The translations under genes were made by a program, and so were the position numbers. A DNA stretch of 64,000 nt from contig NC_018025.1 in assembly GCF_000266945.1 (NCBI RefSeq), positions 4,654,001 to 4,718,000 of the forward strand. Reading direction: 5' to 3'. The stretch is from Desulfomonile tiedjei DSM 6799 (GTDB lineage Bacteria; Desulfobacterota; Desulfomonilia; Desulfomonilales; Desulfomonilaceae). How positions within the stretch are numbered: the stretch's first letter is position 1; each line of letters opens with the position of its first letter. The notes beneath the pieces were generated by a model. That model saw only the letters and a list, made by a program, of their open reading frames with translations, made no database searches and was not told the origin of the DNA. Shown here piece after piece: positions 5,830 through 57,470 of this stretch.

Positions 5830-6050
5830 GAGACTGTCTCAAAATTCTCGAATCCAGAACATCGTGCCACGATTCATCGTCCTTGCAGGGGTCCCGCGAA
5901 CACGCGGGATGCCTGCCCTCCCGCAATGACCGGCACGGAGGCCGGTCACTACCGGGCACCCACGAGGGATGCCCCTACAATCAGGCCGTGAAGATGATGA
6001 GAATTTCGTGCCACGATCGGGGGATAAATCCCGACTTTTGAGACAGTCTC
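5830..6050 (+). repeat. Family B MITE-like element, copy B1
   Basis: A 221-bp non-coding element bounded by a perfect 15-bp terminal inverted repeat GAGACTGTCTCAAAA (5830-5844 and, inverted, 6036-6050). Inside are two copies of CGTGCCACGAT, one near each end, and several G+C-rich hairpins, for example GACCGGCACGGAGGCCGGTC. The structure resembles a non-autonomous mobile element; no transposase is encoded. It lies between tlyA and the convergent lipid kinase gene, where no gene is seen from 5663 to 6112. Confidence 0.75.
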
Positions 6051-20915: not shown

Positions 20916-21030
20916 AATTGCAAAAATTAATGTCCGATTGAGGACAGGGGTATTGGTAGGTGCCGTGCCTCCGTGCCGGCACGTCTTCAATATGATCAAT
21001 AATATCGACAGGATGGACCGACAGGGGAGG
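20916..21030 (-). repeat. Partial family A repeat fused to a family B element (A')
   Basis: Reverse-oriented right two thirds of family A: TGTCCGATTGAGGACAGGGG, then the GGTGCCGTGCCTCCGTGCC hairpin, then TCTTCAATATGATCAATAAT. It joins directly to the B element at 21031, as at 5829/5830. Confidence 0.75.
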
Positions 21031-21209
21031 GACTGTCTCAAAATTCTCAAATGCATACAAATCGTGCCACGATTCTCCATCCGAGTAGGGGCAGACCAAT
21101 GCGTCTGCCCTGATTTGGGCGGACACACGGGTCCGCCCCTACCAGTCAGGCGGGAAGGATGATGAGAAATACGTGCCAGGGTCTGGGACAAATTTCGATT
21201 TTTGAGACA
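21031..21209 (+). repeat. Family B MITE-like element, copy B2
   Basis: Left end GACTGTCTCAAAA (21031-21043), right end TTTTTGAGACA (21199-21209), giving a shortened inverted repeat. Inside are CGTGCCACGATT near the left end and two stem-loops, GGGCAGACC...GTCTGCCC and GGGCGGAC...GTCCGCCC. It lies in the 20804-21364 gene-free stretch after prfA. Confidence 0.75.
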
Positions 21210-21364
21210 CATTCGGGATGCCGGTCCCTACCATGAGCTGGTCGTGCTCGGGTCTCCGTGCCGGGGTCAATAGAAATTGACACCGATTGGCCGAGAGCAG
21301 TCCGACAACAAAAATCCCCTCTCTCTACTGTCGTATGCAGCCGGAGATGAATGGAAGGGATTAC

Positions 21365-31782: not shown

Positions 31783-31795
31783 ATGCCCGCCATAA

Positions 31796-32110
31796 ATTCA
31801 AGCTTTGTTGCCATTCTTTGTCCCGCAGGGACTGAAGAGAATAGCCCGGTAATTCGGAAACTGTCTCAAAAGTTGAAATTCACCCCAGATCGTGGCACGA
31901 TTTTCTCATCAGCTTTCCAGCCTGACTGTAGGGGCGGACCAGAGCGTCCGCCCAAATGAGGGCAGACACATTGGTCTGCCCCTACCCGGATGGAGCATCG
32001 TGGCACGATTTTGTCGTTATGTATAATTTTGCGGCAATCTCTTCATTGCCGGGAATTTGTGTATCAGCCGTCCCCCCGAGAACAAAGGGCCCCAAAACAG
32101 GCTGAGTTAG
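31796..32110 (+). repeat. Family C repeat interrupted by a family B element
   Basis: Left half CTTTGTCCCGCAGGGACT...ATAGCCCGGTAATTC (to 31855) and right half ATTGCCGGGAATTTGTG...GTTAGCGCCTAT (from 32045) are contiguous in the copy at about 39490-39675. At this locus 189 bp intervene. This makes the C copy at 39.5 kb an empty site. Confidence 0.8.
31856..32044 (-). repeat. Family B element inserted in family C, copy B3
   Basis: Reverse orientation relative to the 21031 copy. It begins GGAAACTGTCTCAAAAG and contains two ATCGTGGCACGATTTT blocks plus stem-loops GGGCGGACC...GTCCGCCC and GGGCAGAC...GTCTGCCC. Flanks on both sides end in TTC, a possible 3-bp target duplication. The distal end is degenerate compared with B1. 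Confidence 0.8.
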
Positions 32111-32358
32111 CGCCTATACCCCCGCCTCCTTCTGCCCTCCCCATGCAATCAATAATACCGGCTGAGACACGGTGAGCGAATTGCGGAAAGTAAAGTGACA
32201 AAACTCTGTACCCTGTCCACGGACTTGACAGGCGAGGCAAGCAATAAAAACAGCAAGTTACTCGTTAGAGGAAAGAGAGGTGACATTTTTTGTTACCCCT
32301 GTCCCTTGCTGTAGCGGATCTCAGGGGAAATTCTTCGGCATTTCACTGCTACGAGTCC

Positions 32359-39404: not shown

Positions 39405-39489
39405 TGTGTAATCAAAGAAATGAGATTCGAGGAAGCTTTTTTGCCATCAATAAAGAAGGTTCCCCAACCCCATAGGTGCTAACTTTGCA

Positions 39490-39675
39490 GTAATTCTTTG
39501 TCCCGCAGGGACTAAAGAAAATAGCCCGGTAATTCATTGCCGGGGATTTGTGTATCAGTCGTCCCTCTGGGACTGGAAAATAATTGTATTTTACCTCAAC
39601 CGGCGATGAATCGCCGGCCTATTTTCAGTTGTTCCTCCGGAACAATCCACCAAAAGCACTTGGGTTAGCGCCTAT
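39490..39675 (+). repeat. Family C repeat, uninterrupted copy
   Basis: Starts ATTCTTTGTCCCGCAGGGAC, contains GCCCGGTAATTCATTGCCGG, then hairpin CCGGCGATGAATCGCCGG, ending GGGTTAGCGCCTAT. The same sequence around 31855/32045 is split by a B element. It fills the 39405-39714 gap between the third and fourth membrane-TPR genes; no gene is seen there. Confidence 0.8.
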
Positions 39676-39714
39676 GCTCACCCCACTTCAAAGAGACTTT
39701 GAGTACGAACAGGT

Positions 39715-41517: not shown

Positions 41518-41892
41518 GAACAATGCAGCTTTGAGAAATTTCGATTCATACTGTTTGGTTTTGTTACTGGTTTGCTAATTCGATCACTATAAGAGTATAA
41601 AACTTGCTTTGGCTACGCGAATCAGCCATCCTCTTTTGAGGCACGCTAGCTGTAACTTTAGGGAGTGCCTAATGTTTTCTCAACAGATGAATAATACGCT
41701 AAGTGGATCGACCAGTTTGAATCTATAGTGAACGACTTCGTACACATACGAATAACTTGAATGTAATGACCCGGCAACAGCTTGAGGAAATGGCTCTGGA
41801 GAGACTCGTTGCTTTTCTTGTCATCGCATCGAGGATTCCAAGAATGCACAGATCGAATGAGTAAATTGCTGAAGGTCCACAGGAGTGTTTAG
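41518..41892. other. Gene-free spacer
   Basis: 375 nt without a credible gene or clear promoter. Near its end lies CAGGAG, the ribosome site of the following gene; the leader from about 41872 is duplicated at 42644. Confidence 0.4.
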
Positions 41893-42663
41893 ATGTACTG
41901 GTGGAACATGTCGAAATTGGAAGATGACCTCCGAGAGGGTCGGGTCAGTGAAAATGAACGTTTCATGTACTATCCCGCGACATTTCTCGCATGGAACCTT
42001 GCCGTTTGTTCCGGCTATTCGTTCAGCATGGAGGATCTCACTTCCACGGCTCTGAATCTGACTGCTACCATCATAGGGACGATCTCTTGTCATAGGGTCA
42101 ACAAAATGGGGGACAACGCAGACTTTATCCCCAGGATGATCTGCTTGGGTTGGCCCGCAGGCATTCGGATTGCAGTGTTTTTCGCGAGTATTGCATTGTT
42201 GATTGCTGGTGTTGTCCGCCTACCGGCAGCAGCATATGGCCTTGAGGCATACATATCCGCAATGCGGGACCATCTCGTGCATATCTGGGGCATTTCTTGG
42301 GGAGTCTTTTTTCTTGTGCCTTATTACTCTTTGATTTACAGCGGTTTTATCCGAATTGCCCAGACGAAAGCGCCTGAGAATATGGCGAAAGTCGAACCTA
42401 TTAATACTCGCCGTCCCAAAAGTGATCGAGAGTTGGCTTGGGAAGCGCTGAAGTATCCACTTGCGGTCGTTGGAGGGATAGGAATTGCTGTGTTAAGCCT
42501 AATCGTGGCAATGAACTTGGGCGATCTAGAATTTTCGGAGCGCACCAGAACATTATTATTGCCTGGTCTGGCGCTGATGTCGGGAGCGGTCTGGTTGTGC
42601 GATGTGAGAACACGAACCGCATCGGAGACAATAGCTTCTCGAAAGGTCCACAGGAGTGTTTAG
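41893..42663 (+). CDS. Polytopic membrane protein, tandem copy 1
   Basis: 256 residues with about six hydrophobic segments (about 28-46, 52-68, 92-112, 135-155, 188-208, 222-240). The N-terminal block MYWWNMSKLEDDLREGR and the segment DNADFIPRMICLGWPAGIRIAVF are almost shared with the next gene. No family is recognised. Translation starts after CAGGAG. Its last residues RKVHRSV and the stop TAG are encoded by the ribosome-binding leader of copy 2, so the original C-terminus was replaced by the duplication junction. Confidence 0.7.
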   Translation: MYWWNMSKLEDDLREGRVSENERFMYYPATFLAWNLAVCSGYSFSMEDLTSTALNLTATIIGTISCHRVNKMGDNADFIPRMICLGWPAGIRIAVFFASIALLIAGVVRLPAAAYGLEAYISAMRDHLVHIWGISWGVFFLVPYYSLIYSGFIRIAQTKAPENMAKVEPINTRRPKSDRELAWEALKYPLAVVGGIGIAVLSLIVAMNLGDLEFSERTRTLLLPGLALMSGAVWLCDVRTRTASETIASRKVHRSV

Positions 42664-43452
42664 ATGTACTGGTGGAACATGTCGAAATTGGAGGAAGACC
42701 TCCGAGAAGGCAGGGTTAATGAAAGGGAGCAGTTCAAATGCTACTTGGCGACATTTGTCGCATGGAATCTTGCTGTTTGCTCCGGGTACACATTCAGCGT
42801 TGAGGACTTAGCGTCGACGGCTTTGAATGTGACCGTCATCATCATAGGGACAACCCTTTGCTATAGAGCCAACAAAAAAGGGGACAATGCAGATTTTATT
42901 CCCAGGATGATCTGCTTGGGTTGGCCTGCAGGCATTCGGATTGCAGTGTTTCTCGCGAGTATTGCATTGTTCCTCTCGGGGCTCAGTGGTCTCCCCGCGG
43001 CAGCATATGGCTTTGAAGCCTATGTCTTCGCAATGCTGCACAAGCTCCGCGAATTATGGAGCATCTTTTGGGGAATCTTTTTTCTACTGCCTTACTACTT
43101 TCAAATTCATCACAGCTTTATCCGTATTGCCCAGGCCAAAGCATCTGACAATGCGGTAGAAGCGAGCAAGCCGATACTTCAGCAAAACGGTACCGCAGTA
43201 GGACAACGTCTCAAGAGTGATCTGATAGAGTCGGAGTTACTGAAGTATGCCCTCGGGATTCTTGGAGGCATAAGCATTACGGTACTAATCGTAATCGTAC
43301 CAATTTATGTGAGCGATCACGCGATATCGAAGCGTTTCAGGATATTGTGCAGTGCTTGGCCGCTGCTGATATCATGGCTGTTGGTTTGGCTGATGAGATG
43401 GGAGAAGACGCGAAACCAATCAGGAGGGTCTCCGAAGAGGTCTCCACAATGA
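42664..43452 (+). CDS. Polytopic membrane protein, tandem copy 2
   Basis: 262 residues; paralogue of the preceding gene, strongly conserved over the first two thirds and divergent afterwards (a more charged central loop, EASKPILQQNGTAVGQRLKSDL). The ATG follows the upstream stop codon directly (TAG then ATG), with CAGGAG inside the 3' end of copy 1. Function unknown. Codon use resembles the neighbours. Transcription is probably shared. Confidence 0.7.
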   Translation: MYWWNMSKLEEDLREGRVNEREQFKCYLATFVAWNLAVCSGYTFSVEDLASTALNVTVIIIGTTLCYRANKKGDNADFIPRMICLGWPAGIRIAVFLASIALFLSGLSGLPAAAYGFEAYVFAMLHKLRELWSIFWGIFFLLPYYFQIHHSFIRIAQAKASDNAVEASKPILQQNGTAVGQRLKSDLIESELLKYALGILGGISITVLIVIVPIYVSDHAISKRFRILCSAWPLLISWLLVWLMRWEKTRNQSGGSPKRSPQ

Positions 43453-57084: not shown

Positions 57085-57470
57085 CGAGCGGGCGCTTGGG
57101 AATCTGCGCCCTGGAAGGGCGGTCCAATAATAGCCACGGGTGCAACCCGTGGAACAGCATGCCATAATCCTTGGCAAACGACCCTAGCGAGGTCGTCCAG
57201 GGCGCAACAATTCCTGAACATAATTGGAGGACCCTTCCAGGGTCGGCAATAACGAGATACACCGTCTCCGTGGGTGCAAACCCACGGAAGCGGAACGGCA
57301 AAATCCTTTGTCTTCATGACCCTGAAAGTGTCCACCAATGACAGTTGGGAATCATTGCCTGTTGGTCGACCCTTTCAGGGTCGTTGAACCATGTTTATGG
57401 ACATCGCGCTGTCCACGGGTTGACAACCCACGGCTACCATTGGGTTGCCCCTTCGGGGCATTCACCGCAT
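57085..57470. repeat. Cluster of short hairpin modules upstream of sucC
   Basis: At least six short stem-loops: CCACGGGTGCAACCCGTGG, GACCCTAGCGAGGTC-type, GACCCTTCCAGGGTC, CCGTGGGTGCAAACCCACGG, GACCCTTTCAGGGTC and GCCCCTTCGGGGC, spaced 30-70 nt apart. No gene is present. Their repeated design suggests REP-type module accumulation and not a single riboswitch. Confidence 0.65.

Follow-up and report, generated by a model that had tools for sequence, protein, structure and literature searches.

B-type MITEs of Desulfomonile tiedjei at the loops of palindromic repeats and their probable mobilization by an IS1182-family transposase

In the 64,000-nucleotide stretch of DNA analyzed here (the window; Desulfomonile tiedjei DSM 6799, contig NC_018025.1, positions 4,654,001 to 4,718,000), a repeat of type C at 31796–32126 is interrupted by one element of a second type, B. 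The repeat lies between genes, behind one named by eye as the electron-transfer-flavoprotein alpha gene. The locus raises the questions of whether B entered a C copy that was once continuous, what determined the point of entry and what moved the element. We conclude with good confidence that B elements are MITEs mobilized in trans by an IS1182-family transposase, which inserts the element at a hairpin loop and duplicates the 4 nt of that loop.

A C repeat split by a B element

The features of the locus and of its empty counterpart are, in window coordinates:

31790..31856, + strand: interrupted C repeat, left part, with the left hairpin arm CCCGGTAA
31853..31856, + strand: target duplication, left copy TTCG (decayed TTCA)
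31857..32041, + strand: B element, a MITE of 185 bp; the left end reads GAAACTGTCTCAAAA and the right end, which has decayed, TTTTGCGGCAATCTC
32042..32045, + strand: target duplication, right copy TTCA, the loop of the C hairpin
32042..32126, + strand: interrupted C repeat, right part, with the right hairpin arm TTGCCGGG
39470..39684, + strand: uninterrupted C repeat, the paralogous empty site
39525..39544, + strand: central C hairpin CCCGGTAATTCATTGCCGGG, predicted 8-bp stem, loop TTCA at 39533–39536

Both halves match the uninterrupted repeat, the left one (31790–31855) with 83% against 39470–39535 and the right one (32042–32081) with 88% against 39533–39572. The element between them is 82% identical to the B copy at 21028–21214 and, over 31857–32041, shows 84% identity to a consensus built from 28 B copies in the 183–187 bp class. 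The two C halves were joined by script, with one duplication copy taken out, and the rejoined flanks gave alignments spanning the junction to all 30 C copies that were fetched by similarity to the uninterrupted C query, with 81–93% identity and gapless in 25 of the 30; these loci are empty by selection because the query was an uninterrupted C. The original prediction of a single continuous C copy split by B is therefore upheld, none of the 30 alignments setting the halves apart, and the comparison of filled and empty C sites supports its statement that B-type elements have moved. The comparison is confirmed as genuine, with the caveat that its empty site is a paralogous C copy and not the orthologous locus of a sister strain.

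The exact ends of the element lie at 31857 and 32041, and the target duplication is 4 bp long. The insert had been described as 189 bp flanked by TTC on both sides. The insertion itself is real and the TTC is shared; the element, however, measures 185 bp, the figure of 189 including one 4-bp duplication, and the full duplication is TTCA, intact on the right (32042–32045) and present as TTCG on the left (31853–31856). The left copy is a decayed TTCA, which is why TTC was what had been seen. Insertions with exact duplications in other C repeats (L024, L079, and L003) show TTCA or TGAA. Elsewhere in the window (41872–43152), two direct repeats, 300 and 162 nt long and spaced by 771, are probably a tandem gene duplication.

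The B family and the sites that it occupies

The window belongs to a contig of 6,500,104 bp (C1). Genome-wide, the end GAGACTGTCTCAAAA occurs at least 196 times with no more than one mismatch, against four occurrences of the reversed control, and chance is therefore excluded. Among the matches listed, ends could be paired to give a sample of 72 B copies, in which the exact junction repeat was 4 bp long in 39, 2 bp in nine, 3 bp in three, and 5 bp in two. Clean copies (at most four end mismatches, 70–260 bp) numbered 64 of the 72 and ranged from 77 to 243 bp in length; those of the 183–187 bp class have a mean identity of 81% to each other. B is a MITE family. Its members are short, have inverted-repeat ends and are without a transposase gene (no ORF of at least 80 aa extends into 31857–32041), their duplications are of constant length (exactly 4 bp in the 39 of 72, and 5 bp in two nested copies), and an autonomous relative, an IS with matching ends, is present in the genome.

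Two B copies lie inside another B. At L119, subtraction of the inner 213-bp B and of one CTCGT (a 5-bp duplication) leaves an outer B whose alignment to the B consensus runs without gaps over 184 bp, with 89.7% identity; at L083, where the duplication is CACAG, the corresponding alignment covers 153 bp with 84% identity and two gap openings. As read by eye, the outer B carries a hairpin in each case, and the inner copy occupies its loop. With regard to internal organization, the minimal B elements of 77–78 bp (L061:552-628, L080:496-573, and L082:557-634) contain one ATCGTGGCACGAT each, and the long forms (181–243 bp) contain a cassette between two ATCGTGGCACGAT, which are in direct orientation in 51 of 61 cases, inverted in eight, and unscored in two. 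The cassette looks as if other palindromic repeats had entered the center of B with an 11–13 bp duplication.

The window holds two further B copies and an empty site of a third target type:

21029..21214, + strand: second B copy, within an A-type palindrome; duplication GGGA at 21025–21028 and 21215–21218
5830..6050, + strand: third B copy, of the 221-bp class, which contains an A-type hairpin; its target is an A-type palindrome; duplication GAGA/TAGA
57268..57287, + strand: D hairpin without an insert, CCGTGGGT-GCAA-ACCCACGG; at other places in the genome, such hairpins are preferred by the IS1182-family IS as targets

What the original prediction had overlooked is that the insertion point is a hairpin loop, and that this is true across several target families. 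The exact 4-bp duplications of B are found mostly at the centers of the unrelated palindromic repeats A, C, and D, and the sequences on either side are inverted repeats: CCCGGTAA[TTCA]TTGCCGGG in C, CCACGGGT[TGAC]ACCCGTGG or CCGTGGGT[GCAA]ACCCACGG in D, and GGACCGGCA[GGGA]CGCCGGTCC in A, with the duplicated bases in brackets. Single-strand folding of empty C and D sites places an unpaired 4-nt loop exactly on the duplicated words, TTCA and GCAA. By target class, the 64 clean copies comprise 29 in A, 14 in D, five in C, and 16 in other sites, several of which are decayed A sites; the best palindrome center falls within 1 bp of the duplication center at only 29 of the 64.

Pairing of the flanks was scored over eight positions at 42 sites, that is, at distinct 20-mer targets whose 4-bp duplication is exact, pooled from B, the IS, and elements of relatives (four of the 18 IS copies entered). 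The mean was 5.40 stem pairs, against 3.56 with shuffled partners (maximum 4.29 in 2000 shuffles) and 2.03 at random. An inverted-repeat target irrespective of its sequence, the structure dependence known from IS1272, is seen here as well: six or more of eight pairs were found at 22 of the 42 sites and at 0.7% of random positions. The 42 sites fall into 13 clusters, of which several consist of one weak site, and A and D hold 29 of the 42; since the sites are clustered and not independent, the claim rests on a few unrelated palindrome families and not on 42 events. When one-sided asymmetry was allowed, 25 of the 39 exact-duplication B sites of this genome had at least six pairs, compared to 3.1% of random positions; the other 14, many of them decayed A sites, stayed below six even so. 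An unstructured-looking target is seen at L022 and at the intact IS copy L121 (duplication ATAA).

Palindromic repeats are abundant between genes in this genome. Their availability alone favors palindromic targets, yet it leaves insertion at the exact center unexplained, and the data suggest that both DNA shape and sequence guide the choice of target. Many C copies are empty (59 hairpins with up to two mismatches). Uninterrupted D hairpins number 46 and those filled at both ends 44 (with B in 26 and the IS in 18, one of these IS copies being diverged), in a count that used 95 of 99 matches, four matches with three mismatches having been dropped as not D-like; the seven single-ended D matches include at least one site that is not D (C1:1961258). 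Filled D hairpins may be neighbors, as with the IS at C1:2902832-2904536 and the B at 2904662–2904898, a few hundred bases apart. D repeats often have two hairpins about 144 bp apart, with arms CCACGGGT and CCGTGGGT (C1:165001-165164, 2545112–2545275, and others), and at C1:1431711-1431990 a C hairpin lies between two D hairpins.

The same ends, together with the first inner bases, were found in at least four of 99 genomes, including that of D. tiedjei itself. In G004, a relative at the family level, they bound a different MITE of 131 bp (at least 13 matches, nine examined), and in G002 one element of 159 bp (at least one match, one examined); in G009 (L220), no paired end was seen for the match. 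Eight of nine elements of relatives (eight from G004 and one from G002, leaving out L236, which has a nested structure without duplication) show an exact 4-bp duplication, and seven of these eight have six or more of eight stem pairs, against 3.1% at random. Their flanks are likewise palindromic, for example GGCACGG[CATC]CCGTGCC and CCACGGGC[GTAA]GCCCGTGG.

An IS1182-family element with the same ends

A full-length parent with the ends of B, which the original prediction had proposed to look for, was found: an IS1182-family IS shares both GARACTGTCTCAAAA and the 4-bp duplication. Its transposase, a protein of 479 aa, scores 368.8 bits against the NCBIfam profile NF033551 (transpos_IS1182), above the cut-off of 270, and 80.2 bits against the next-best profile, NF033581, below the cut-off of 140; it also matches DDE_Tnp_1_6 and DUF772. 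Eighteen intact copies, all of 1681 bp and in two sequence variants, have the ends GAAACTGTCTCAAAA...TTTTGAGACGCTTTC, and a diverged copy is located at C1:5542965-5544667. The left end is the same as that of B 31857–32041, and the right end departs from the B consensus at three of its 15 positions. An exact 4-bp duplication accompanies 16 of the 18 intact copies. Some IS1182 members target palindromes (Siguier et al., as cited in PMC5678879 and PMC4923244), and the present IS does so as well: 17 of the 18 intact copies are in D hairpin loops, L121 (ATAA) being the exception. From these likenesses in sequence, the IS is the likely mobilizer of B.

Relatives of the transposase in whole genomes reached 49% identity over short stretches only and 28% near full length. 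A pattern scan of genome contigs with the IS1182 transposase gave 27 matches and no confirmed relative, the ends of transposase relatives, sought at 11 loci, yielded nothing usable, and the transposase search in G004 gave no match.

Other candidate parents were rejected. Pairs of ends 2.5–4 kb apart occur at L070, L078, L082, and L104. At L078, L082, and L104 the products of the ORFs between the ends include, as judged by eye, an asparagine-synthase-like and a sigma-factor-like protein and no evident transposase, and at L070, L078, and L082 the ends are those of short B copies that are distinct from each other. A second transposase family (L131-L145) was of the IS4 family by NCBIfam and has unrelated ends, TGCTGTTGA. 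Fourteen aligned copies of this IS4-family IS (L131-L144) are inserted in palindromic GGAGGCCGGCGC-type repeats, and the inspected copies have direct repeats of about 11 bp beside their ends.

Insertion at hairpin loops and the alternatives

The proposed events are as follows. The transposase would recognize the 15-bp ends GARACTGTCTCAAAA and bridge, with the element, the loop of a palindrome that can form a hairpin; one end would be joined to one strand beside the loop, and the other end to the opposite strand on the far side. The strands would thus be cut 4 bp apart, on either side of the loop, and repair would leave the hairpin arms flanking the element and the 4-nt loop duplicated. At the present locus, B would have entered the central C hairpin (arms CCCGGTAA and TTGCCGGG, loop TTCA), and the insertion would then have decayed. 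Two parts of this scheme are inferred: that B was moved by the present transposase or one closely related to it, and that what this enzyme recognizes is a hairpin or cruciform in extruded form, not the double-stranded palindrome.

Might the hairpin be incidental? A transposase that reads double-stranded sequence as a symmetric dimer (for example GG...N4...CC or the D repeat) would also pick palindromes, because symmetric sites are palindromes. We consider this unlikely, though it agrees with the concentration of 17 of the 18 intact IS copies in the single family D and with arms that are all GG/CC-rich near the loop in A, C, and D, and some transposases may read palindromic REPs in the way that regulators read their binding sites (PMC1525189, in the part available). 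Against it are the unlike arms that are used (CCCGGTAA/TTGCCGGG, CCACGGGT/ACCCGTGG, CCGTGGGT/ACCCACGG, GGCACGG/CCGTGCC, and GGACCGGC/GCCGGTCC), the covariation of the arms, in which a change in one is matched by the other, and the coincidence of the duplication with the predicted loop. The identity of the mobilizer is a separate matter. The likeness of B and the IS is limited to their ends, nothing obvious being common to them further in, and B copies are diverged (81% on average in the 183–187 bp class) whereas the 18 IS copies, in two variants, are near-identical; the mobilizer of B may therefore be an older IS. That B was moved by a different IS1182-type element, since lost or diverged, with the present IS merely having the same ends, is a serious possibility to which we give somewhat less than even weight. 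The diverged IS copy at C1:5542965-5544667 would fit it, as would G004, with its same-end MITE and no detected transposase, but B and the IS have the minimal ends and the duplication length in common, and both target D hairpins.

It is very improbable that no transposition took place and that C with B is a composite repeat spread by recombination or gene conversion. Repeats in this genome are indeed modular, and two B copies (L016 and L120) have a left flank from one target and a right flank from another, a pattern expected of recombination between B copies. Empty C copies are nevertheless common, B is found in A, C, D, and B itself with differing duplications of 4–5 bp, and within the one target family D the elements vary from 77 to 213 bp in length. 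Insertion into the hairpin loop by an IS1182-family transposase is the preferred explanation.

The closest known systems are IS1272 and TnSha1 of staphylococci, IS1182-family elements described as undergoing inverted-repeat-replacing or stem-loop-replacing transposition (PMC5678879, PMC4923244). According to the parts of these accounts available, the targets of IS1272 are inverted-repeat structures of unrelated sequence, and insertion deletes the stem-loop and leaves no duplication. The family of the transposase and the sequence-unrelated inverted-repeat targets are thus alike; here, in contrast, both arms stay and the 4-nt loop is duplicated, with L062 and L236 as possible exceptions without duplication. 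The staphylococcal accounts, in those parts, concern an autonomous IS and composite transposons, whereas the present elements are MITEs. Loop duplication with the arms kept appears as a hypothetical pathway (c, Fig 13 of PMC5678879). The target rule is a variant of the known IS1182 hairpin targeting, arms kept and loop duplicated, in what is otherwise an ordinary-looking nested MITE insertion. IS1272 insertion destroys the evidence of the stem-loop; because the hairpin arms are preserved here to the left and right of the element and the loop is duplicated, dozens of natural insertions record the points of strand joining, and the loop-joining route is therefore testable. A literature search by title and abstract opening found no IS1182-derived MITE with loop duplication, a result that does not imply absence from print.

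Intergenic repeated palindromes are also landing sites for the REP-targeting elements ISPsy8, ISPa11, ISPpu9, ISPpu10, ISRm22, IS1397, and IS621 (PMC1525189). As far as the excerpt of that paper goes, those belong to the families IS3, IS110, IS4, IS256, and IS5, whereas here the family is IS1182 and an element uses several unrelated palindrome families. The Chunjie MITE of Geobacter uraniireducens (178–235 bp, dozens of mainly intergenic copies, conserved ends, direct repeats; PMC10969869, in part) resembles B, by its description, in length, in copy number, and in having conserved ends and direct repeats. Insertion into loops is one explanation for the nested intergenic palindromic repeats in this bacterial family. 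REPIN/RAYT systems also consist of short palindromic intergenic repeats in many copies, and depend on a TnpA-REP (HUH) transposase. The A, C, and D repeats resemble REPIN repeats; B, in contrast, ends in inverted repeats, is flanked by target duplications, and has a DDE transposase as its likely partner.

For a mobile element, hairpin loops may be sites where insertion does no harm. Tentatively, and as a proposal that we would rate just short of evenly balanced, this branch of IS1182 and its MITEs may constitute a shape-reading hairpin-loop integrase that keeps the stem and duplicates exactly the loop (usually of 4 nt, but of 5 nt in CTCGT and CACAG), with the hairpins of the MITEs serving as new landing sites, so that palindromes breed palindromes. 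The reverse nesting also occurs, a C-type hairpin being contained in two B elements of 207 bp (L095:382-588 and L106:526-732).
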